A stretch of 31,864 nt of DNA from a virus. The position numbers and the translations under genes are program-made. The notes beneath the pieces were generated by a model that worked only from the letters and a program-made list of their open reading frames with translations, did not search any database and was not told where the DNA came from. Location: positions 1-31,864 of IMG/VR virus record IMGVR_UViG_3300002514_003933; one strand, given 5' to 3'. Shown here piece after piece: positions 2,204 to 31,311 of this stretch; the first letter of the stretch is position 1, and each line of letters opens with the position of its first letter.

Positions 2204-2220
2204 GCATAGGATTGCTACCG
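2204..2220 (-). promoter_or_regulatory. Late-promoter-like element, copy 2
   Basis: Minus-strand reading is CGGTAG-CAATC-CTATGC. The TAG of the first half is the stop codon of the gene at 2215-3444. The last T of CTAT is 33 bases from the lysin ATG. Confidence 0.65.
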
Positions 2221-3444
2221 AATGACCTCGTAGTTGCGGGTGCGATCACGGAACCACGGGTCCGAGATCGACACGAGGCCCAAGTTGTCTGTGGCGATGA
2301 GGCGCGTAGGTGACCCCATCTCGATCAGTTGTGCGTCGTCCAAGCCTGCCGCCATCTTCTCCTGTCCGACAGTGGCGGGGATCACGCGCATCACGGTCCT
2401 CCCGAGCGGAACGTGGATGGCCCAGTCAGTCATAACGCTCAACGATAGGGAAGCCGTGTAGAAGTAATCGTCGCCATTCTCGTCGTAGATTTCTTCGGCC
2501 TCACCACCCATGCTGACGGACGTGATCTCGATTCCCTCGGTGGAAAGCCTCTCCCGTGCCTCCGTGTGGAGGTACATGAGGGTGCGGTCAGTGATCTCCC
2601 CTTGGGCGTACACGTCACGGGCCATAATGTCCATGTCCATGCTCATCTCCCACCTGCCGCCGAACTCCTTGGCCACATCTTCCCGTCGTTCCGTGACAAC
2701 CACCGCCATAATGTCCCCGTCATAGGCCCTGCGCCCAAAGGCGAGAACCACTCCGGGGATAGCATCCACATCAGCGCCGTTCTCGGGGAGGGGGAACGGG
2801 CCAGTGCTGGTCCCGGCGTAGCGGTAATCCACCGACATTGACGTGTTGGAAGGGAGGGGGGCCGCCAAAGTGATTTGCCCTGTGGTGGCATCCGCCGTGT
2901 AGTTGACCCCCTCATACAAGAGAATGTTTCCCGGCATCTCGTAGACTTGAAGGCTTCCGGGGTGGAAAGCCCCTGCGCCGACCTCATATAGACGAGGGCC
3001 AAGCATCGTCGCCGTCTCGTCAATCACATCCAGCAACGGGTCCACATAGAAGACAAGCCTTTCCGTCTGCTCGCCCCGATAGGTGATGACCTCTTCGCGG
3101 ACCTCGATGTAGTAGACCCCAGGGGGAGACGGGAAGACCCCGTTATTGGCACGGATCGCAGCACCGTTCTCACGCACCCACTCGATGCTCGTTCCATTCT
3201 GCCCATACACTTTGGTCAGGAAGCAGTACGCGATGATGGTGCCCTGAAAGTGATCTGCCGCCAGTTGAAAGGGGCTCGCACTCTGGCTTTTCAGGATGAT
3301 GGCTTCCTGGGGGCGCTCCCGAAATGAGAACCGCCCCTGGATGTTAGGCACCAAGGAGTCCCGGTACTTCGGGTCTTTCGACCACAAGTACCTGATCTCT
3401 TGGATCATACGGCGTTTCAAAGCCTCGGTAAGATTTGCGTACAA
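2215..3444 (-). CDS. Putative virion structural protein
   Basis: A 409-aa acidic protein with no transmembrane segment. It begins with a helical region (residues 1-30), followed by long beta-rich stretches such as LLYEGVNYTADATTGQITL and SMSVDYRYAG. The C-terminal part (about residues 330-409) is also beta-rich. This composition and its place between the lysin and other late genes fit a neck, tail or baseplate structural protein. I do not recognise a named family. An element of the late type lies 47 bases upstream of the ATG and directly follows the TGA of the Dps-like gene. The gene ends in TAG, which also forms part of the next late element. Confidence 0.7.
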   Translation of the reverse strand: MYANLTEALKRRMIQEIRYLWSKDPKYRDSLVPNIQGRFSFRERPQEAIILKSQSASPFQLAADHFQGTIIAYCFLTKVYGQNGTSIEWVRENGAAIRANNGVFPSPPGVYYIEVREEVITYRGEQTERLVFYVDPLLDVIDETATMLGPRLYEVGAGAFHPGSLQVYEMPGNILLYEGVNYTADATTGQITLAAPLPSNTSMSVDYRYAGTSTGPFPLPENGADVDAIPGVVLAFGRRAYDGDIMAVVVTERREDVAKEFGGRWEMSMDMDIMARDVYAQGEITDRTLMYLHTEARERLSTEGIEITSVSMGGEAEEIYDENGDDYFYTASLSLSVMTDWAIHVPLGRTVMRVIPATVGQEKMAAGLDDAQLIEMGSPTRLIATDNLGLVSISDPWFRDRTRNYEVIR

Positions 3445-3488: not shown

Positions 3489-3505
3489 TCATAGGCGGCC
3501 TACCG
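3489..3505 (-). promoter_or_regulatory. Late-promoter-like element, copy 3
   Basis: Minus-strand reading is CGGTAG-GCCGC-CTATGA, starting right after the TGA of the Dps-like gene. The last T of CTAT is 47 bases from the ATG at 3444. Confidence 0.6.
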
Positions 3506-4651
3506 TCAGAGCAACTCCTCGGACCACCGTGCCATGCGGTCCTTGTTCATCTGGACCACTTTCTTTTCCCCCGGCACTTCGGTCTGAATGACGTACCGGT
3601 TGAGGGTGGAGAACGCTGCCCCACCGGGCTCATCCTTGATCTCGTCAGGGGTAGGGGGTGCCTCGTCGGCTTCCGCTACGGCCTTGGCTTCCGACACGTC
3701 CATGTTGTCTTGTTCCGACGCTTTCTCGGCAATCTCGGGATTGTTGCTGATGGCGTTCGACTGCGAGAACTCCAGCACTTCCTTCTTTTCGGGGTCATCG
3801 TAGAAGGCATCCTCGGCGGTCGGTGCGCCCGACCCCCGCTTCCGCTTCTTGCGAGCCGCGCCTTCCGCCACACGCAACACCCGCTGATAATCTTGCAGTT
3901 CGTCCTGGGCGATCCAGTGGAGTGGTTCGGCAGCCGACTCAACCCCAAAAGGAAGGGTGCCCTTCGCGTGAAACTTTAGGGTCTTCATCGCGCTCCGATG
4001 ATCCCCGAACTCAAACCCTCCCACTCGCATCTTCTTCGCAGCGATGGAGGCTTCCAAGTACCCCACGGCCTCGATACGAGACAGTAGGTCTTTGGCGATC
4101 TTCTGGGCCTCTTTATGGGACACCATCGGGTGATCCCCTGCCTGCTTTTGGGTGAGGGGTTCCGTGAGGGTCTGTTGAAGCAGGTAGGTGTTCTCCTCGT
4201 GGGAGTTCGCAGTCGCCATGAGCCAGTCATCGAGGCCCAAGGTCATAGCCCTGGCACCCTTGATCCCCTCGTAGGCGACCCTGATTGCTTCTTGAAGATC
4301 CTCCTCCGAACGAATCCCGCGCTTGTGGTGGCAAGAGATCCGACCCCAATCCAGGGTAAAGTTGTAGATGGCCTCCACTTGACGGTTGAGGTCAAGGGCA
4401 TCCCCGCCGAGGTATCCGGCGATCTTCTCGGCCAACTGATCTACCTGCTCCTGCACCGACTGATACAGCCGATCAAAGAGCAGATGGTTTCCGTAGAACG
4501 ATCCCCCCACGACCTGCCAATGACTCGTCTGGTAGGAGAGGTATTGGGCACGGAGACAGGCAAGCACGTCGGTCAAGAGCCGCCGCACAACGTCCCGCTG
4601 CATCGGGGTCGCGGTGAGGTACGCTTTCTTGTCTCGTTCGTGCTGGTTCAT
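3506..4651 (-). CDS. Dps/ferritin-like domain protein with long C-terminal extension
   Basis: A 381-aa protein. Residues about 15-165 match the four-helix Dps fold. H44, H56, D60, D71 and E75 have exactly the spacing (12, 4, 11, 4) of the E. coli Dps ferroxidase ligands H51, H63, D67, D78 and E82, in the context SHWQVVGG, NHLLFD and DQLAEKI. A later segment, ANSHEENTYLLQQTL, fits the last helix. The remaining 215 residues are an extension of unknown function: a Lys/Arg patch (ARKKRKRG) near residue 270, then an acidic, probably disordered region, then a short C-terminal beta-like segment. Dps proteins oxidise Fe(II) with peroxide and coat DNA. The start at 4651 overlaps the upstream stop (ATGA), indicating coupling with the 4648-4983 gene. 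It lies in a late operon, so a virion location is plausible but unproven. Confidence 0.82.
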   Translation of the reverse strand: MNQHERDKKAYLTATPMQRDVVRRLLTDVLACLRAQYLSYQTSHWQVVGGSFYGNHLLFDRLYQSVQEQVDQLAEKIAGYLGGDALDLNRQVEAIYNFTLDWGRISCHHKRGIRSEEDLQEAIRVAYEGIKGARAMTLGLDDWLMATANSHEENTYLLQQTLTEPLTQKQAGDHPMVSHKEAQKIAKDLLSRIEAVGYLEASIAAKKMRVGGFEFGDHRSAMKTLKFHAKGTLPFGVESAAEPLHWIAQDELQDYQRVLRVAEGAARKKRKRGSGAPTAEDAFYDDPEKKEVLEFSQSNAISNNPEIAEKASEQDNMDVSEAKAVAEADEAPPTPDEIKDEPGGAAFSTLNRYVIQTEVPGEKKVVQMNKDRMARWSEELL

Positions 4652-4983
4652 TCCTCCATCTCCAAGACCTGTGCGAGCGTTTCGGTCCAAGCGTCATATT
4701 GACCGCTGGACCCATCGGACGGGAGACTGGGCTTATGCTTCTTTCGCGCCTTGCGGAGATCATCTGGGCTCCTGACATTGAGCCGCTTCATCTCGGCCTT
4801 GGCTATCCCAAGCATCTCCTTTTGCGTCTTCCCCCAGTGCTTCCAAGGTTCCTTGGCGGCTCTCCGTCGGAGCCCAGCCAGGATGGCTCGGCGCATCCCA
4901 TCTCCCGCAGGGAGAGTGGAGGCGAGACGGATGAGGATCCGGCGATCTTGGGAGGCTTCCTTTTTCAGTTCTTCGTCAACCAC
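4648..4983 (-). CDS. Small basic protein with LIRxASTLPxG motif
   Basis: A 111-aa, Lys/Arg-rich protein. Residues 17-38 carry LIRLASTLPAGDGMRRAIL, one of six copies of this motif in the window. The rest is helical and basic (AKAEMKRLNVRSPDDLRKAR) with a Ser/Gly linker and an acidic tail. The start is a GTG at 4983 with GAGGA about nine bases upstream; the frame is open for a further 23 codons upstream but has no ATG or GTG there. The stop overlaps the start of the Dps-like gene. It belongs to the same operon as the 570-aa repeat-bearing protein. Function unknown; a DNA-binding or capsid-internal role is a guess from charge and motif. Confidence 0.75.
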   Translation of the reverse strand: MVDEELKKEASQDRRILIRLASTLPAGDGMRRAILAGLRRRAAKEPWKHWGKTQKEMLGIAKAEMKRLNVRSPDDLRKARKKHKPSLPSDGSSGQYDAWTETLAQVLEMEE

Positions 4984-5072: not shown

Positions 5073-6785
5073 TCAGAGCATCCGCTTCAGTTCGGCCTTG
5101 ATCGCCTTGGCAACCGGCCCCCGCCAGGAACGGGCGTTGGTGAGGAAGTACCGCACGATCATGTCGGCGCTGTCGTGCCCGTACATATCGCTCATGCGGT
5201 TCAGGGAGAGCATCGCATCGAGGTAAGGCTTGGCCGCGTAGTTGACCTTGGAACCCCAGTCCGATTTGATCTCACGGGCAATCAGATGCAGCGGGCGGCC
5301 CGCCTGCTTGGCCCGAGGCTGCTCCCACTCCAACACGCCATCCGGGGTGTCGGGAACGAAAGCCATCTTCACGAGCGTATCGTTGAACTCATCGAGGGAG
5401 CCCGCAACTGACCAGGGCCACTTGCGCTGGAGAGCCAGCCGACCAGAGGACTTCTTCTTGGATTCCTCCCCAAAGGGCTTCTTCTCGTTAGTCTCGCCGT
5501 CGCCGTCCTTATCGTTGCCCTTGGGGTTCGGGTTGTCTTCCTCGGTGAACTGGTGCTTCTTCAACTCCTCGGGGAGTTTCTGCTTCCCGGTCAGTCGAGT
5601 CCGACCTTCCCTCATCTGGGCTGCCTGTGCCTTGGCTCGATCAGCCTCGGCTTGCTGTTCGTTGGCTTCGGCCTCGGCCTGCAACTTTTCGGCTTCCTGC
5701 TCGGAAGCGAACCGGAGAGCACCGCTGTACTGCTCGGCCAGCCCCTTCGCCAGATGGGCGAGGTAATGGTTCACGTCCCCGTTCTTGAAGTCGATCATGC
5801 GGAGGGTTTCTTCGATCTTCGCCTTCTCGCTGCCACGGGTCTGTTTGATGGCTTCGATCACCACCTCGTTGGGGATACTGTGTGTGACCCCCTGCCGGTC
5901 GGTGACCTCAAACACCTTCGACGGGATGTTCTTCTCCTTGAAGAACATGTCGAACCAAGAGGCCGCCGCCTTTTCAACCGGGGGAGATCCGACAGTCTGA
6001 CACCGCCCTTCACAGTTGCCCCCACAGGAGCAGTTGCCCCCACAGGCGTACCGCTCGATGGGCAGAAGATCATCTTGGGAAGCGGCCTTCGCCATCCCCA
6101 TCACGTCTGCGAGATCCCCGCGTGAGTAGCCTCCGACAGCCTTGGCAGCGTCGTCGTCCGACACCCCCAACGACTCAAAGTAAGCCTGGAGTGCCGCAGC
6201 CATCTCTTTCGGGGAGGTGGCCTTCATGCGCTCTTTCTTGATGAAGGACTTGAATCCATCAAGTGCCTTCGACTTGGACAGCATCTCCAACTTCTTGGGG
6301 GCCGAGGCGCTTCCTGCTGATCTCATCCCGCAGGGCGAGCCCGGTGTGGATGCCCGCTCGACCGGAAGGAGGTCAGCCTCCATGGCTTCCTCCATCTCCT
6401 TCCGCATCTTCTTGACGGAATCGGGAGGATTGTCGTGCATTTCCTTGAACTCGGGTCCAACGACAGCCGCTACTTCCTCGACGGTCATCTTCTTCCCCTC
6501 GGGGAACTTGGCCCGTCGGGCCATCGACCCACCCGGCAAGTATTCGGGGTTGACCATGTAGAGTTCCTGGCTGACCTTGCCCCTCGTATAGAGGATGGTC
6601 TTCTTGGCTACGAGAGTACCCCTGTCCTTCCACTCCACATCCATCGTGCGCGGACCCCCCTCGATGTGTTCCTTACGAGCACGAGGGGCATTACCGAGGG
6701 CGGCGTTGTACTCACGCTCCGTAGCCGACTGCATCTTCTCACCAAAGGCGGTGCGGGAAGCAAGTTCAATAGGTAGTAGAGCCAT
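5073..6785 (-). CDS. 570-aa repeat-bearing late protein, possibly internal virion protein
   Basis: The ATG at 6785 has AGGAG eight bases upstream; a longer reading from 6818 is less likely. The protein is modular. A short motif LLP(I/V)E occurs at residues 3-7, 139-143 and 240-244, each followed by a basic or hydrophobic turn (LAS, RAS, RYAC). After the third copy comes a Cys cluster, CGGNCSCGGNCEGRC (residues 248-262), that could bind metal or form disulfides. Residues 360-395 are an Ala/Glu/Gln coiled coil. Residues 405-445 are low-complexity and acidic. The C-terminal 100 residues form a compact domain with VRYFLTNARSWRGPVAKAIK. The repeated boundary motif suggests a polyprotein or a protein with several targeting segments (inference). 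No enzyme signature is visible. It heads the operon 6785-3506, with a late-type element 32 bases upstream. Confidence 0.75.
   Translation of the reverse strand: MALLPIELASRTAFGEKMQSATEREYNAALGNAPRARKEHIEGGPRTMDVEWKDRGTLVAKKTILYTRGKVSQELYMVNPEYLPGGSMARRAKFPEGKKMTVEEVAAVVGPEFKEMHDNPPDSVKKMRKEMEEAMEADLLPVERASTPGSPCGMRSAGSASAPKKLEMLSKSKALDGFKSFIKKERMKATSPKEMAAALQAYFESLGVSDDDAAKAVGGYSRGDLADVMGMAKAASQDDLLPIERYACGGNCSCGGNCEGRCQTVGSPPVEKAAASWFDMFFKEKNIPSKVFEVTDRQGVTHSIPNEVVIEAIKQTRGSEKAKIEETLRMIDFKNGDVNHYLAHLAKGLAEQYSGALRFASEQEAEKLQAEAEANEQQAEADRAKAQAAQMREGRTRLTGKQKLPEELKKHQFTEEDNPNPKGNDKDGDGETNEKKPFGEESKKKSSGRLALQRKWPWSVAGSLDEFNDTLVKMAFVPDTPDGVLEWEQPRAKQAGRPLHLIAREIKSDWGSKVNYAAKPYLDAMLSLNRMSDMYGHDSADMIVRYFLTNARSWRGPVAKAIKAELKRML
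6013..6046. repeat. Two tandem 16-base copies inside the Cys-rich segment
   Basis: CAGTTGCCCCCACAGG occurs at 6013-6028 and 6031-6046, period 18 bases. On the coding (minus) strand it encodes two successive Cys-Gly-Gly-Asn-Cys units, so the cysteine cluster appears to have grown by tandem duplication of six codons. Confidence 0.85.
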
Positions 6786-6814
6786 GGTGAAATCTCCTGT
6801 CGCCCAGTCCCCCT

Positions 6815-6831
6815 CCATAGAGGAGCTACCG
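6815..6831 (-). promoter_or_regulatory. Late-promoter-like element, copy 4
   Basis: Minus-strand reading is CGGTAG-CTCCT-CTATGG, in the gap after the stop at 6834-6836. The last T of CTAT is 32 bases from the ATG at 6785. It would drive the three-gene operon 6785-3506. Confidence 0.65.
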
Positions 6832-7615: not shown

Positions 7616-7632
7616 CGATAGACGCACTACCG
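7616..7632 (-). promoter_or_regulatory. Late-promoter-like element, copy 5
   Basis: Minus-strand reading is CGGTAG-TGCGT-CTATCG, between the stop of the sigma-like gene and the next ATG at 7582. The last T of CTAT is 36 bases from that ATG. Confidence 0.65.
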
Positions 7633-7638
7633 ACCCTA

Positions 7639-8247
7639 TCAGTTCACGACGTAGATCACCGGCTCGGACCATTGAGATCGCTGTGTCTCTTTGAGGATGT
7701 TGAGGTTCCCGGCCACATGTTCGTACACCTGCACATAGGTATCCATGCCGCTCATCTTCTTCAGGCGGTCGATAGTGCGGAAGAAGCGGTGCCGCACAAA
7801 ACCCTGTGTCACCCCCATCCGCTTCGCCACTTCCGACTGACAGGTTGTCTCAACCATCCCCAACATGATCTCAATGTCTCGGGGATCAGTGAGCACCCCT
7901 CGGAGATCCTGCTCCATCAGCCAGACGTTGTAAGTCGGCATGTCGATGAGATAGCGGATCCTGGCTGCGGCTCGTTGAAGTCGGTAGCACACCGTCGGCT
8001 GGCTGATGTTGAACATCTCCGCAATGGTGGTCTGCCGGAGTTTCTGAAAGAAGTACAACTCCACGAAGTCAGCCTCACGCGGGGGGATCTGCTCCAGAAC
8101 CCCCTTCACTTGGTCTAACTCCTCCTTGCTTTCATCCGACATCTCCTCGGAGATGCTGGGGTAGTTGGAGAGGGTGTCCTCGGTTGAAAAAATCCTCTCC
8201 ATGTCGGAGGGATCCAGAACGATATGACTGCACCAATAGTTACTCAT
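7639..8247 (-). CDS. Sigma-70 region 4-like HTH protein, probable transcription factor
   Basis: A 202-aa protein. Residues about 45-100 look like sigma region 4: LEQIPPREADFVELYFF, then the helix-turn-helix TIAEMFNISQPTVCYRLQRA. A second HTH-like segment follows at about 135-165 (CQSEVAKRMGVTQGFVRHRF). Region 2 is not evident, so it may be a divergent sigma factor or an HTH activator. Its ATG lies eight bases inside the end of the NusG-like gene, so the two are translated together. It is the last gene of the replication/transcription block and is directly followed by a late-type element. A role as the phage late transcription factor is inferred from this position, not shown. Confidence 0.8.
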   Translation of the reverse strand: MSNYWCSHIVLDPSDMERIFSTEDTLSNYPSISEEMSDESKEELDQVKGVLEQIPPREADFVELYFFQKLRQTTIAEMFNISQPTVCYRLQRAAARIRYLIDMPTYNVWLMEQDLRGVLTDPRDIEIMLGMVETTCQSEVAKRMGVTQGFVRHRFFRTIDRLKKMSGMDTYVQVYEHVAGNLNILKETQRSQWSEPVIYVVN

Positions 8248-8782: not shown

Positions 8783-10178
8783 GGTCACCCATCATCCTTC
8801 GGAGATGGTGACGTACCAGTTCACGAAAAACAGGTGACGAGAGAGATTCTTTATCGGATGTGGGTTGGGACTTGTCAGTCCGCGAAACAGGGCCATGACC
8901 CACCGCTCGGGAGTCCACCCATATCCCGTTGGCGGTTGTTGATGCTGTTGGCGTGTCTGATCCATGACCGACATTACCCACAGGATCAAGGTCAGGAGAC
9001 GAGCCTTCCGAAAGTGCCGAGCAAGCCCCCGAAACAAGTGGGGGGGTGGGGGGAGCAGCAACGGGGGGCGCGGGGGCAGATACAACGATCTGGGCTCCGA
9101 CAGAAACCCCCACATCGGACCCGTAGAGGTGATGGGAGGCAACCGAGTCAAGGATCAAGGTCTGCCGCGTAGGACGGTGGGGTGGGGCAGCAAAACGGGA
9201 AGCGACGGTGAGAAGAGACGGCCCCGACTCTGCCAGGGCCTTCACCCGACCACCATCCCACTTGGTAGGGATTGAGGCAACCCCCAAGTAAACCCGGTAG
9301 ACAAGCATCGCTGCTTCCGCTACTCGCTCATAGGCCCCCGACGGGCTCATCCTCTCGGAGAGTGAGGTGGCAACGCTCACCACACGGTTGAGGTCCGACC
9401 CAAGGGCCTCCAGAAGCCCCAGAACCTCCTCGTTCGCCTCCAGATGCAAGTAAGCTGCTGCATTAGTCCGGGTGATGCCCCCGAGCATCGAAACCCCCTC
9501 GACCATCTTCAAGGCATCTCGGATATGGCTCTCACTCTGCTCCACGAGGAGAGTGAGAGCATCCCCTTCGTACTCAATCCCTTCCTGCCCACAAACATGG
9601 GTCAACCGTTCCACAATCTCGGGGAGAGGTGCGGGGCGGATCACGAAGGCCGGGGCACAGCGCGAGAAGATGGTGCTCGCCATCTTGGCTGGCTCGGTGG
9701 TACAGAAGATGCACACGAGCCGCTTTTCCTCTGACCCCAACACGTTGTCCTCCATCGGCTTCAAGAGCACGTCGAGGGCCTGTTTGGACAGGCGATGGGA
9801 CTCATCGAAAAGGTAGATCCTGCGCTTTCCCGAATAGGTGGAGTAGGTCACGTCTTCAACGATTCGGGCGAGGTCTGCCTTCCCCGACTTCGTAGCCGCA
9901 TCCAGTTCCTCAAAACACTCGTGGGTGCCCCCATCGAGAAGCACCCGGCACGACCCACAGGAGTCGCAAGAGGCCCCCTCAACCGGAGCCTCACACAGCA
10001 ACGACCGAGCAAGAAGACGACCGAGGGTTGTCTTCCCCGATCCGTGCTGCCCACAGAAGACGTAGGACTGGTGAAGCCCCCTTCCCTCCTTCACGAACTG
10101 GCGAAGGACAGCCACGGTGGCATCCTGGCCCAGCACATCCCCATAGGTCCGGGGCCGATACTTGGTATCAAGCGCCAT
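8766..10178 (-). CDS. dnaX: DnaX-like clamp-loader ATPase (gamma/tau)
   Basis: A 470-aa AAA+ protein that loads the sliding clamp on DNA. It opens with MALDTKYRPRTYGDVLGQ, typical of gamma/tau. Walker A is GQHGSGKT at 43-50. A zinc module has C62, C71, C74 and C77 with the usual C-x8-C-x2-C-x2-C spacing. Walker B is IYLFDESH at 121-128, sensor 1 is in FCTTEP, and the SRC arginine-finger motif is at 172-174. Residues after about 350 are Pro/Ser-rich and unlike tau domains IV-V. The start at 10178 has GGAAGG upstream and overlaps the previous gene by 11 bases. A DnaN-like clamp at 15650 is the likely partner. No delta or delta-prime is seen here, so host subunits or genes outside the window may be needed. 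Confidence 0.93.
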   Translation of the reverse strand: MALDTKYRPRTYGDVLGQDATVAVLRQFVKEGRGLHQSYVFCGQHGSGKTTLGRLLARSLLCEAPVEGASCDSCGSCRVLLDGGTHECFEELDAATKSGKADLARIVEDVTYSTYSGKRRIYLFDESHRLSKQALDVLLKPMEDNVLGSEEKRLVCIFCTTEPAKMASTIFSRCAPAFVIRPAPLPEIVERLTHVCGQEGIEYEGDALTLLVEQSESHIRDALKMVEGVSMLGGITRTNAAAYLHLEANEEVLGLLEALGSDLNRVVSVATSLSERMSPSGAYERVAEAAMLVYRVYLGVASIPTKWDGGRVKALAESGPSLLTVASRFAAPPHRPTRQTLILDSVASHHLYGSDVGVSVGAQIVVSAPAPPVAAPPTPPLVSGACSALSEGSSPDLDPVGNVGHGSDTPTASTTANGIWVDSRAVGHGPVSRTDKSQPTSDKESLSSPVFRELVRHHLRRMMGDHGRSG

Positions 10179-11834: not shown

Positions 11835-13073
11835 TCAGCGCCAGACGGTGGGGACGTATCGGTGGCTGACCTTGTTCTTGCCGAGCCACAACAGGAAGTC
11901 CCCGTTGTCCATGTTCCGAACCACGTCGGGGTCAGCCTTCAGCAGCTTGAACAGCTTACGGGCGGCACCCTTCGACGTAGACTTGTAGAACGCCCGCATC
12001 CCTTCCATCTGGGCCATGTAGTCGTCCTTGTCTGCCTCGTCGTAGAACGTGAACTCATCCCATCTCGATGTTCCCGCGAAGTCCTTTCCCTTGAAAGAAA
12101 TCGGGGAATAGTCTTGCGGCTCGACCTCCAAGAACGACACAACTTCCTCGTTCCCGAGGAAGTTTTTGGGCCACTTGACCTTATCCAACTGCGCCTGCAT
12201 CTCGGCAGGGGTCATGTAGTTGCCCGGATACTTCTTGGAGAGTTTGGCTGCCTCTTTCAGTGCCTTGGTGCCCACCTCCTCGATAGCCCCTCTCATCGCC
12301 GCCACTGCTCGGTCATAGGTCATGTTCTTGGTGATACCGGCATCATTCCAGATGTTGCTCATCAGGAAAGGGCCGTCGGGGCGGAACCACCCACCACGCA
12401 TCACCCACTCCGTCGAAAATGTGATGCGACGGACCTTGCGCTTGACGGGTTTCCCCGGCATCTCCTCGATCATCACCCTCTGACCACCGAAGCGAGCACG
12501 CATGAGGTCACCGGAAATGACCTCATCCCATCCACCTCGGGCCTCTTTCTGGATCCTTGCGAGGATGACCCTACGCTCATCTGACCCAGCAGGAAGACTG
12601 GAAGCGAGGCGAATCAAAGCTGGTCGGTTGGAAGCCCACATCGAGCGTTGGGCGTTGTCCCCGAGCCAGCGTTCCACGTCACTGTGCAGGGTTTCTTGGT
12701 TCTTGACGCGCCTCAAAGCACTCTGAACCTGCGGGGGTAGGCCGTCGTAGTCCATCGCTGGACTCGATGCGGAGTCGAGGTACTGGCGAAGGATCTTCTC
12801 TTGCCGCTTCATCAGCCGAGCGGTCTTGGCCTTCTTCTTGGCCTTGAACTTCTCCAGCAACTCGGCTGGCATCTTGTCGTCACCCTTCGACTTTGACTTC
12901 GACTTGCCCTTACCGGGTTGAACACCGTCCTCTTTGGACTTCTCGCAGTTCTCGCGCATCGCGGGAACCTTCAGCTTCTCGCACCCAGCCAGGATCACGC
13001 GACGTGCTTCTGACCCCACAGGGAGAGTGGAGGCCACACGGATGAGGAGTTGTCGGTCAGTAGGGGTAGCCAT
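11835..13073 (-). CDS. Late-type protein with two LIRxASTLPxGS motifs
   Basis: A 412-aa basic protein. The motif occurs at residues 10-31 (LIRVASTLPVGSEARRVIL) and again at 153-174 (LIRLASSLPAGSDERRVIL), dividing it into a 130-residue Lys-rich helical segment (KGKSKSKSKGDD, then KFKAKKKAKTARLMKR) and a C-terminal domain of about 240 residues with a mixed alpha/beta look. The recurrence at the start of each section suggests two units joined in one polypeptide. No enzyme signature is visible. The ATG at 13073 has GGAG upstream, and a late-type element lies 38 bases upstream, although the neighbours are replication genes. Its motif is shared with proteins at 1-212, 4648-4983 and 29875-31311. Confidence 0.75.
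   Translation of the reverse strand: MATPTDRQLLIRVASTLPVGSEARRVILAGCEKLKVPAMRENCEKSKEDGVQPGKGKSKSKSKGDDKMPAELLEKFKAKKKAKTARLMKRQEKILRQYLDSASSPAMDYDGLPPQVQSALRRVKNQETLHSDVERWLGDNAQRSMWASNRPALIRLASSLPAGSDERRVILARIQKEARGGWDEVISGDLMRARFGGQRVMIEEMPGKPVKRKVRRITFSTEWVMRGGWFRPDGPFLMSNIWNDAGITKNMTYDRAVAAMRGAIEEVGTKALKEAAKLSKKYPGNYMTPAEMQAQLDKVKWPKNFLGNEEVVSFLEVEPQDYSPISFKGKDFAGTSRWDEFTFYDEADKDDYMAQMEGMRAFYKSTSKGAARKLFKLLKADPDVVRNMDNGDFLLWLGKNKVSHRYVPTVWR
12552..12617 (-). repeat. Internal copy of the LIRxASTLPxGS motif
   Basis: Encodes residues 153-174 of the 412-aa protein. It is closely similar in amino-acid sequence to the N-terminal copy (12981-13046) of the same protein and to copies at about 123-188, 4870-4935, 31225-31290 and 30082-30138. 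DNA in the PxGS codons is also similar between copies. Confidence 0.75.
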
Positions 13074-23314: not shown

Positions 23315-24199
23315 CTAAATGTCGAGGTCATCGAGCAAAGATTCGATTGAACGGGGCTTCAAGGCCACCTCATCTTCCCCGCCGATGGCCGACAGGAACT
23401 CGTCGGACTCCTCGTCCGAGCCTGTAGGACCAAGGGACTCTACCGTAAAGGGGTCTTCCTCCGTCTCGGGATCAGCAAGGAGATCACCCACGCTCTCGGC
23501 AGGGGTGTCCCCCGTGGAACTCTCCGGCTCGGGCTCGGGCTCGGGCTCGGGGTCAATGAGCGGTGCGACAGCGGCAAGGTCCGGTTCTTCCACCCCTGTC
23601 CCGGTGAACATCTCATGGAGATCACGCAAGGTCTTGCGGTCCACGTCGGGCGAGGCTTCAAGGTCAGGAGCCTGCGACCCAGGGGCAGGCTTGCTCCCCC
23701 AGAATCCTCCGAGGCCGATCTCCTCGTTGCACAGCTTCATCTGGTCCCTGATGCGACCTTGAACGTCTTTGAGATCACTACGCTTGGCCTTGATGACAAT
23801 GAGCATCGCCTCCAAATCCGCTTGGGACTGGGCAACTTTGGCGAGGGCTTGGGCTTTCTCCCGCAACTTCATCGTCGCCAGGGCTTCCCGGTCTGCCACA
23901 TTCCGACCAGCCCTGACCTCGGGATCATTGGCAAAGAGGTCTTTCTTCTCCAAGTCCAGTTCCACGTCCAAGGTGCGGTGTGCAGCCCGGTATTTCTGGA
24001 GCCAATGGCTGACCCGTAGGAACAGACCCTCACACTCGGTGAGCATCCGCCGCGTCTGGGCTACCTTTCCTTGAAGACGCTTGGGTCCAAACTGGAGCGG
24101 GTCGTCGTCCAGTTCGACCTCCATGCGCGTCAACGTAGCGAAAACGGCATCAATGGCTTCGGCATTGACCTGGGGCAACTCGGGTGCAGTCTCCGACAT
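23315..24199 (-). CDS. Helical acidic-tailed protein adjacent to SSB
   Basis: A 294-aa protein. Residues 1-165 are helical, with NDPEVRAGRNVADREALATM near the middle and DLKDVQGRIRDQMKLCNEEIGLG. Then comes a disordered acidic region with a PEPEPEPEPE run, and a C-terminal tip SIESLLDDLDI. That tip resembles the end of the neighbouring SSB candidate (DDLLDDVI). This suggests a partner or competitor for the same docking site, such as an SSB accessory or mediator (inference). No enzymatic motif. The ATG has AGGAG six bases upstream. Confidence 0.75.
   Translation of the reverse strand: MSETAPELPQVNAEAIDAVFATLTRMEVELDDDPLQFGPKRLQGKVAQTRRMLTECEGLFLRVSHWLQKYRAAHRTLDVELDLEKKDLFANDPEVRAGRNVADREALATMKLREKAQALAKVAQSQADLEAMLIVIKAKRSDLKDVQGRIRDQMKLCNEEIGLGGFWGSKPAPGSQAPDLEASPDVDRKTLRDLHEMFTGTGVEEPDLAAVAPLIDPEPEPEPEPESSTGDTPAESVGDLLADPETEEDPFTVESLGPTGSDEESDEFLSAIGGEDEVALKPRSIESLLDDLDI
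23526..23550. repeat. Four tandem GGCTCG hexamers
   Basis: Simple tandem repeat encoding the Pro-Glu run in the acidic linker of the helical protein. Such repeats are prone to length change. Confidence 0.85.
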
Positions 24200-29247: not shown

Positions 29248-29457
29248 AGGGTCCACTTCCACTACCTCTACGTCGATGATGTTCTTCCCTCGCTCTTTCT
29301 GGAGACGCAATCGCCGTGCCGCCCGGACGAAAACGACCCCGAGCACAGCGAGCGTCGTAACGGTCAGCACGAAGGTAAACGTGAACGCCCTCTGAAAGTT
29401 GCCTGCGAACTGCGCGGAGAGCGGCTGCTCCTCATCGGGAGGAGGCAGGCGTTTCAC
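29242..29457 (-). CDS. Small single-pass membrane protein
   Basis: A 71-aa protein with one membrane helix at about residues 28-48 (FTFTFVLTVTTLAVLGVVFV), a basic cytoplasmic-type flank (RAARRLRLQKERGK) and an acidic C-terminus. It could be a holin, a holin regulator or another membrane anchor. The start is GTG at 29457, overlapping the TGA of the FmdB-type gene (GTGA). Expressed with it. Confidence 0.7.
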   Translation of the reverse strand: MKRLPPPDEEQPLSAQFAGNFQRAFTFTFVLTVTTLAVLGVVFVRAARRLRLQKERGKNIIDVEVVEVDPQ

Positions 29458-29834
29458 TTCTTTTCCTTCCGCGCCCGCGCCTCGTAGCCAGAGGTGTCCT
29501 TGCCCTTGGACCTCGCCAGTTTGGTTGCCTCGCTCCATGACCCCACCCTCTCGCCCTCAACATTCGGGGCCAGCTTGCCCCCCGCGTCTTGGCCTCGTTC
29601 AGCTTGGGCCGCATCCAGACGACGATTCTTCGCTCTCATCTGACCCCGGACCCGGTTGTTCTTCCCAGCCCATCCATCACCCCGCAGGATAAATCCTGAT
29701 CCTCCCGAAACCAACTTCGTAGCGGGGGTGTGCCCACACGCCGGACAATCTTGGGGTTCTCGGTAGCGTGCTATCGGGAGCAGCTTTTCAAAGTGCTCCT
29801 CACAGGCATCGCAGCGGTATTCGTAGGTGGGCAT
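29454..29834 (-). CDS. FmdB-family zinc-ribbon protein (second copy)
   Basis: A 126-aa protein starting MPTYEYRCDACEEHFEKL. CDAC (8-11) and CPAC (about 30-33) are the zinc ligands. The tail is basic and Gly-rich. It is a paralogue of the protein at 273-731, with the same start and layout but different tails. The ATG has AGGAG about nine bases upstream. It is followed by a one-helix membrane protein whose GTG overlaps its stop, and preceded by the 478-aa motif protein. Confidence 0.87.
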   Translation of the reverse strand: MPTYEYRCDACEEHFEKLLPIARYREPQDCPACGHTPATKLVSGGSGFILRGDGWAGKNNRVRGQMRAKNRRLDAAQAERGQDAGGKLAPNVEGERVGSWSEATKLARSKGKDTSGYEARARKEKK

Positions 29835-29874
29835 ACACAGGGCTCCTGGCTCCCCCACCCTACCCACGGGAAGG

Positions 29875-31311
29875 TCAGAGGGCGAGGCTGTACTCTTTGC
29901 CGTCCTTATCAAGCACACCCTTGGCCACAAGCCGCTGAAGGAACTTCGTGTGTTGCTGGGGGTTGCCCCCAAAGCCGTAGGCCAGCGTTGAAGCCGAGAC
30001 AGTATCCCCCGTCGCCTTCAAATACTTGATGAGCGATTTCTCGGTCAACACGTCCTTCGCCCCCACATCCGATGCCTGCCGGAGCAACACCTTGCGGTGT
30101 TCTGACCCCACGGGGAACGTGGAAGCCATACGAATGAGCAAAGCCCGACGGCGACGATGGACCTCCGACCAGTAGACACTCGCTATGTCACGGTCTTTCA
30201 GGATCTCACGGTCTTGTCTCGGGAGCCCCTTGGCCAACTCTGCGTCGGAAAGACCCGCCAACGCAGCCCTCATCTTCTTCAGGAGTTTCTGGAAGTTTGC
30301 GGCGATCTTCTGGGTGGTGGGGATTCGGATGGGGTTGTCGTCTTCATCCGTCTGCCCCTCAAAATACTTCTCCATGAAGGGACGGAACTTCGTGCCCTCC
30401 AGGGTCACATCACCCTCCCCCTTTCCTCTCGCGGATACCCCAAGAAAGTTCTTGTTGGCCTGGACGGAAGCCAACAGAGCCTCCCAAATCCGAGCCTGTG
30501 CAGGGGCATCAGCCAACACCCGCTTCATCACGGGATCGATGGCTTTCAGATACAACTCCTTGGTGAGCATGTCAGCAGGGTCCGGGGGTGTGTATCCCCT
30601 CGGGACAATCTGCTGGCCTTCCTCGGTTTCGGGGAATGGTCCCTCCCACTTCCCGGCATCCACCGAGCGGACCCAATCCTTCGTCTTGTTGCGGGCAATC
30701 CCCATCAACCTCTTGATAATGAAAGCGAGGTTGAACTTCTTGGACTTCAGTTCCTTCCCGACAGACCGGAAGATGTTGTCTCCAGTCGCGTAGGGCTCCT
30801 CGCCGCTCACGCGCTCGACATAATCACCAAAGCCACCTTTCTCATTCTTCACGCGAGAGTCGAAGCGCATCCCAGGCCAGTGTTGACCCCCGTGTGAGAG
30901 TACCTGGGCAACATCCTCACCAGAGATTCCTGACAGGGCAGGTTGCCACTTGGCCACCTCGTCCACGGCACGGCCCAAGGCCGAGTTTCCGCCCCTCACC
31001 AAAGCCGTCCACAGCCCCATGTTGGCCGTGGGGTCAACGAACGTAAGGGCCTCTCCGGGGCGCTGTGCGGTGCCCTCGTCCCAGCCATTAGCGGCAAGTG
31101 CCTTCACATACGGCTCGTAGTCGCCCTGCTTCAGATCACTCTTGACCCGATCACCCGACTTGCCGGTGAGCCCCCCAAGGAACTCGTAGCGAGCCAGAAA
31201 ATCCTCACGGGCTCCCGCCTCTTTGATCAAAGCAAGGATCACTCGGCGGTCACGGCTCCCTGACGGCAGGGATACCGCCAAACGAACCAAAGCGGCAGCG
31301 TAGCGATTCAT
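29875..31311 (-). CDS. Late-type protein with two LVRLA/LIRMASTxP motifs; internal sigma-like segment possible
   Basis: A 478-aa protein. The motif occurs at residues 8-29 (LVRLAVSLPSGSRDRRVIL) and 392-410 (LIRMASTFPVGSEHRKVLL), so the C-terminal 85 residues form a separate unit. This tail has a winged-helix look (LTEKSLIKYLKATGDTVSAS, then a loop and FLQRLVAKGVLD). Residues about 193-285 contain FIIKRLMGIARNKTKDWVRS and an acidic linker plus a helix that recall region 2 of extracytoplasmic-type sigma factors; this is only a resemblance. The ATG at 31311 has GGAGAG upstream, and a late-type element lies 45 bases upstream. Probably virion-associated (inference). Confidence 0.72.
   Translation of the reverse strand: MNRYAAALVRLAVSLPSGSRDRRVILALIKEAGAREDFLARYEFLGGLTGKSGDRVKSDLKQGDYEPYVKALAANGWDEGTAQRPGEALTFVDPTANMGLWTALVRGGNSALGRAVDEVAKWQPALSGISGEDVAQVLSHGGQHWPGMRFDSRVKNEKGGFGDYVERVSGEEPYATGDNIFRSVGKELKSKKFNLAFIIKRLMGIARNKTKDWVRSVDAGKWEGPFPETEEGQQIVPRGYTPPDPADMLTKELYLKAIDPVMKRVLADAPAQARIWEALLASVQANKNFLGVSARGKGEGDVTLEGTKFRPFMEKYFEGQTDEDDNPIRIPTTQKIAANFQKLLKKMRAALAGLSDAELAKGLPRQDREILKDRDIASVYWSEVHRRRRALLIRMASTFPVGSEHRKVLLRQASDVGAKDVLTEKSLIKYLKATGDTVSASTLAYGFGGNPQQHTKFLQRLVAKGVLDKDGKEYSLAL
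30082..30138 (-). repeat. Internal copy of the LIRxAST motif in the 478-aa protein
   Basis: Encodes residues 392-410. It is the most divergent copy (TFP instead of TLP, RKVLL instead of RRVIL) but keeps the spacing. It marks the start of the winged-helix-like C-terminal unit. Confidence 0.65.

Follow-up and report, generated by a model that had tools for sequence, protein, structure and literature searches.

What lies at this locus? The window, i.e., the whole stretch of 31,864 nucleotides analyzed here, is part of a 150-kb virus record and carries on its minus strand, at positions 3506–4651 (stop codon included), a gene for a 381-aa Dps-like fusion protein (P0001), recognized by its ORF, Pfam and PDB searches, and AlphaFold modeling. 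The gene begins with the ATG at 4651—a start supported by relatives that begin MSQHQRDKQAYL...—and within an ATGA it shares bases with the stop codon of the preceding gene. The protein comprises a Dps/ferritin-like domain (residues 16–162, helices A, B, BC, C, and D; 4166–4606), a poorly conserved middle part that includes the basic patch AARKKRKR (residues 163–273; 3833–4165), and a conserved C-terminal module (residues ~274–363; 3563–3832). Its neighbors lie on the same strand: a 111-aa protein with the tag LIRLASTLPxGxxxRRAILAGL (4648–4983) and a 581-aa protein, parts of which are conserved at the same place in other phages (5073–6818), are encoded immediately upstream, and a 409-aa protein (2215–3444) is encoded by the next gene downstream, where it is conserved at 59–79% identity in eight other phages. 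Farther upstream, also on this strand, are sliding-clamp and clamp-loader genes and a gene for a sigma-70 region 4 protein (7639–8247), a candidate phage sigma factor that is syntenic in 19 phages.

The 150-kb record is itself contained in a 297-kb record (IMGVR_UViG_3300025141_000016; hereafter G001), with 99.99% identity over 150,000 bases. Because G001 encodes a terminase large subunit, a portal, a tail sheath, and a major capsid gene (294 aa, at 23342; phrog_2522, 9e-55), it represents a large contractile-tailed phage. A 602-aa gene at 9745 of G001 was our first guess for the capsid gene and was dropped, as it had no capsid match. The tail sheath is 1829 aa long (G001:C1:280221-285710), and its match to the sheath family is limited to the C-terminal ~350 residues, which implies that the remainder is a very large N-terminal region or insertion. 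Two closely similar ~335-aa proteins (G001:C1:131822-132835 and 293972-294976), both starting LGVGLDVGTMNLVSARR, resemble actin/Hsp70-type ATPases. Recurrent peptide tags were also seen. The tag LIRLASxLPxGSxxRRxILAxL occurs 14 times in G001 proteins (shuffled mean 0.06), mostly near the N terminus, with sites in the window at 4648–4983, 11835–13073, and 29875–31311 (all minus strand); an analogous tag, LIRLAHxxPxLRxHLLPLLK, is found in other phages, and tags of this type may be targeting or cleavage signals. A second tag, RVAxRYxxR, occurs 24 times in G001 (shuffled mean 0.83), often near protein ends (e.g., in 190585–196478, 244990–246201, and 291369–292775).

Does the N-terminal part of P0001 represent a true Dps domain, as the initial annotation had proposed from the letters of the sequence? 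The Pfam Ferritin family (PF00210) matched residues 25–151 with 27.9 bits (E = 2.5e-6), above its curated cut-off of 24.5 bits. A phmmer search against the PDB returned Dps proteins (best 2vxx, 1.2e-7), a profile of 15 family sequences matched Dps at 5e-10, and nearly all PDB sequence matches for the protein or the profile were Dps proteins or Dps scaffolds. The AlphaFold model, built with a 37-sequence family alignment, is a four-helix bundle with a BC helix (residues 16–46, 52–81, 88–103, 108–132, and 138–162), and its pLDDT is 95–99 over residues 21–160. Foldseek returned Dps chains as the best solved structures, most with a TM score of 0.7–0.8 on the target; the E-values were modest (best 5.5e-4), in part because the query was the full-length fusion. 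The hallmark of the Dps family—a four-helix, ferritin-like bundle with a short BC helix—is thus recovered by Pfam, AlphaFold, and Foldseek. Judged by sequence and predicted structure, P0001 carries a true Dps/ferritin-like domain, and the annotation was right both in naming it and in holding that the helices around the putative metal site fit.

The metal site itself presents a more nuanced picture. Residues H44 (4520–4522), H56 (4484–4486), D60 (4472–4474), D71 (4439–4441), and E75 (4427–4429; all minus strand) align with H51, H63, D67, D78, and E82, respectively, of E. coli Dps, in which the ligands fall at their published numbers; the exact E. coli spacing claimed for P0001 is therefore confirmed. 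The pattern H-x11-H-x3-D-x10-D-x3-E occurs once in the protein, at residue 44, and arose in 25 of 200,000 shuffles of it, so the spacing alone is fair evidence, and it is the profile and fold evidence that settles the Dps assignment. A two-sequence profile scan of IMG/VR yielded 53 loci, from which 48 nonredundant domains were aligned. Residues H44, W45, H56, Y63, D71, E75, and D141 are invariant across all 48 of these phage relatives, and the four ligands among them, together with W45, remain strictly invariant down to ~35% identity. Position 60, however, is acidic in only 23 of the 48 (18 E and 5 D), with Q in 18 and A, S, N, or G in 7 (A3, S2, N1, and G1). The "intact ferroxidase site" of the initial annotation therefore describes P0001, in which all five ligands are present at Dps spacing, and is not a rule of the family. 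Loss of the acid need not kill the site, since in NpDps4 residue 67 is a noncoordinating Asn, yet the protein binds and oxidizes iron (PMC6675082). The retention of H44, H56, D71, and E75 in every relative suggests that the site is under selection.

How far does this Dps subfamily extend beyond phages? When 84,980 prokaryote genomes were scanned with short patterns, which distant cellular Dps proteins would escape, there were two matches, both on MAG contigs. A contig binned as an Actinomycetota MAG (L100, RFZO01000018.1) encodes a Dps-module fusion and, as read by eye, a terminase-like ORF, and is probably a phage contig, either mis-binned or from a phage of an Actinomycetota host. The terminase-like ORF appears to contain an intein.

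The C-terminal extension of P0001, some 215–220 residues long, had been described as a basic patch followed by a disordered acidic part. The patch exists, but KKRKR is absent at the corresponding place in the relatives, and we rejected it as a conserved DNA-binding tail. The acidic part, in turn, holds the conserved module, the most conserved piece of the extension and itself rich in acidic residues, and residues 301–340 are modeled by AlphaFold as helices (pLDDT 81–93). The module follows the pattern (S/T)AE..F(F/Y)(D/N)(N/D)P-E/K-K/R-x-E-V..EF..S.A.SN ... PPTP.EI...PGG..(F/L)STLNR, with (S/T)AE-x-x-FFDNPEKREVREFA...A.SN and PPTPxEI...PGGxxFSTLNR as hallmarks; the motif can also be written FFDNPEKREVREF...PPTPxEI...PGGxxFSTLNR. 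A profile of the module built across the family yielded no pattern sharp enough for a further scan. The linker that joins it to the Dps domain differs among relatives in length and content.

Is the module a unit in its own right? In the 485-kb phage LR745208, the halves of P0001 are encoded separately, with 93 kb between them. One gene, located next to chaperonin- and RtcB-like genes (as read by eye), specifies a Dps of 161 aa with 44% identity to P0001; the other specifies a protein of 244 aa, in which the C-terminal ~110 residues align with P0001 residues 260–371 at 46% identity. A 90-position profile of the module matched ~25 distinct Dps fusions as well as separate proteins of ~240 aa that carry their own helical N-domain; the AlphaFold model of a separate module protein was poor and unreliable (pLDDT 48). 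The RVAxRYxxR tag also precedes the module in such proteins. The module lies C-terminal to Dps in most relatives and N-terminal to it in one (L063). All seven module-bearing records of at least 94 kb also encode a Dps domain, and Dps and module are separate genes in seven records (G009, G018, G020, G033, G013, G016, and G017). Gene fusion and co-occurrence together indicate a functional link between the two parts. In the records of some phages, such as the 618-kb G003, Dps stands alone and no module was found, so the module is dispensable for Dps function in general. In a few relatives the Dps domain sits inside larger proteins (L051:7950-9644, L057:38-1693, and L064:5331-8444), with a SAM-lyase-like part in L051 and an inorganic pyrophosphatase (InPase) part in L057; metallopeptidase-like (HELVH) and highly basic parts were also recognized by eye among these larger proteins.

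Is the gene expressed late, as the initial annotation supposed from a late-type element ahead of its operon? The T4-type late promoter TATAAATA was rejected for this role: it is essentially absent from the 297-kb G001 (none on the plus strand and one on the minus strand), and a different element, CGGTAG-N5-CTAT, is present instead. It occurs 33 times in G001, and 23 of these copies lie no more than 160 bp upstream of a gene start, whereas base-shuffled sequence contains 2.3 per strand; since a base shuffle is a simple control and the regular expression was picked once the enriched words were known, the exact ratio is optimistic. Around the dps gene, copies on the minus strand lie upstream of the 581-aa, 111-aa, and dps genes (CGGTAGCTCCTCTAT, 6817–6831), after the sigma-like gene (CGGTAGTGCGTCTAT, 7618–7632), and between the dps stop codon and the 409-aa gene (CGGTAGGCCGCCTAT, 3491–3505). 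Copies stand in front of the dps operon, whose first gene is the 581-aa one, and likewise ahead of the sheath gene, the capsid cluster, and genes adjacent to the portal gene. The existence of the element is thus confirmed, while its late timing we infer from its position before structural genes; the phage's own sigma-like protein (7639–8247) presumably recognizes it.

The structural context that had been claimed for the gene is supported by its neighbors. The order in G001 runs from the clamp through the clamp loader, a KOW protein, the sigma-like protein, two small genes, and the 581-aa gene to the Dps fusion, and then through the 409-aa, peptidoglycan-binding, and FmdB-like genes to the tail sheath, which starts ~4 kb downstream of dps behind a CGGTAG-N5-CTAT element. 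This order is partly kept in at least eight other phages, while in others Dps is followed by two genes, terminase, and portal. Within ~8 kb or less of the Dps gene, a terminase large subunit was found at 16 loci, a tail sheath at 9, and a major capsid gene at 1. In that last setting (L074), 3.4 kb separate the Dps gene from a capsid gene that shares 79% identity with that of G001, and a gene for the N-domain of the separate module protein is nearby. The separate module gene, in turn, lies ~2–6 kb from the major capsid gene in five phages (L023–L027), and the capsid gene there is 84–85% identical to that of G001. Two FmdB-like zinc-ribbon proteins, encoded in the window at 273–758 and 29454–29972 (minus strand), are conserved beside Dps and module clusters in other phages.

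What might a putative ferroxidase do in such a setting? The tail of the protein and the repeated siting beside capsid, packaging, and tail genes suggest, from gene sequence and order, attachment to the growing head. The reading that we favor, with a probability of roughly one-half, is that P0001 is a Dps-like ferroxidase made with the structural proteins and tied to the head or the assembly machinery via its C-terminal module. Fe(II) would be bound at a site between two subunits and oxidized by O2 or H2O2, which would remove Fenton reagents near the phage DNA late in infection or during packaging, while the module would bind a head component. The subunits would assemble into a dimer or a 12-mer and keep their extensions on the outer side, as twelve 24-kDa extensions cannot fit the ~5-nm cavity of Dps (PMC11202242). 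A bolder proposal is that the ferroxidase is loaded into or onto the capsid via the module as a targeting device, such that the virion would be an encapsulin-like iron- and peroxide-handling compartment, shielding the genome inside it or delivering iron or ferroxidase to the next host; this we consider rather unlikely.

Phage gene clusters mix virion and nonvirion genes, and the same protein, produced late, could remain soluble inside the infected cell and, as an auxiliary function outside the particle, reduce the levels of free iron and peroxide there, with the module binding something else (e.g., a replication or transcription component). The presence of clamp-loader, clamp, and sigma-like genes in the operon and the existence of stand-alone Dps genes without a module fit this account, which is also how published studies interpret other phage Dps proteins (PMC6669764 and PMC8008677). 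It is possible but not probable, given that the module, where separate, neighbors the major capsid gene and that the neighborhood of Dps repeatedly includes terminase, portal, capsid, and sheath genes. This same gene context would also suit a purely structural use of the Dps fold—as an assembly scaffold, connector, or decoration, with metal secondary or only stabilizing the dimer—as would the nonacidic position 60 in about half of the relatives and, by name only and with little weight, the BFVD "Prohead protease" entries that match the Dps-like part. Such a use would not demand four ligands and W45 that are strictly invariant to ~35% identity, and we regard it as improbable. Least credible, and indeed very improbable, is the view that P0001, like E. 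coli Dps, binds DNA directly and in this way compacts or shields that of the phage or the host: several Dps proteins are known to bind DNA and P0001 has its AARKKRKR patch, but the patch is not shared by the relatives and the conserved module has many acidic residues. Moreover, DNA binding or protection is not universal among Dps proteins, and, going by the structure title of the Agrobacterium protein (1o9r), some protect DNA without binding it.

How does P0001 compare with known systems? With bacterial Dps (E. coli 1dps, Streptomyces DpsC 4cyb, and Nostoc Dps4 5hjh) it shares the four-helix bundle, the BC helix, and equivalents of H51, H63, D67, D78, and E82. It differs in its ~220-residue C-terminal extension with a phage-specific module, in the signature LGLDDWLMATANSHE, which is peculiar to its phage family, and in the variability of the D67 position among its relatives. 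The word "unusual" in the initial annotation holds only in part, since P0001 shares its Dps-like domain with other phage-encoded proteins: PMC6669764 reports such genes in Lactobacillus phages, including Iacchus and Semele, and PMC8008677 does so for gut phages, among them "Gratiaviridae" and "Flandersviridae." Dps-like proteins are also annotated in uncultured Caudovirales phages and form PHROG groups 3636 and 858. The Lactobacillus phage proteins are ~31% identical to one member of the P0001 family, have no fused module described for them, and, unlike that family, are encoded close to DNA-metabolism genes (PMC6669764). Some relatives, with Dps fused to InPase (L057) or a SAM-lyase-like part (L051), recall the polyvalent, multidomain proteins of phages (PMC5512222), whereas P0001 consists of Dps and module only. 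In the open-access literature searched, we found no report of a Dps–capsid-module fusion or of a virion Dps or ferritin. What is new, as far as we found, is therefore the fused architecture and the link to capsid genes. So far, phage Dps genes have been interpreted as aiding the stress tolerance of the host, while a Dps joined to a module with a capsid-adjacent separate homologue, in many large uncultured phages, points to the particle instead.

The closest working analogy, though we claim no membership, is offered by the encapsulins, in which an HK97-fold shell retains a ferritin-like cargo through the cargo's C-terminal peptide and one cargo type, IMEF, resembles Dps (PMC11202242). If our favored reading were true, it would link phage capsids to these compartments, and the long-standing notion of iron being carried or managed by phage particles would become testable. 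Encapsulin cargo (ferritin-like protein [FLP] with a C-terminal targeting peptide, or IMEF) combines a ferroxidase, an HK97-type shell, and a C-terminal appendage, as P0001 would, its conserved module, linked to capsid genes, being a docking candidate. The shell here, however, would be the phage capsid, the module has ~90 residues and is not a short targeting peptide, and where encapsulated FLPs typically have the two-helix EncFtn fold with EXXH, the AlphaFold model of P0001 is a four-helix Dps subunit.
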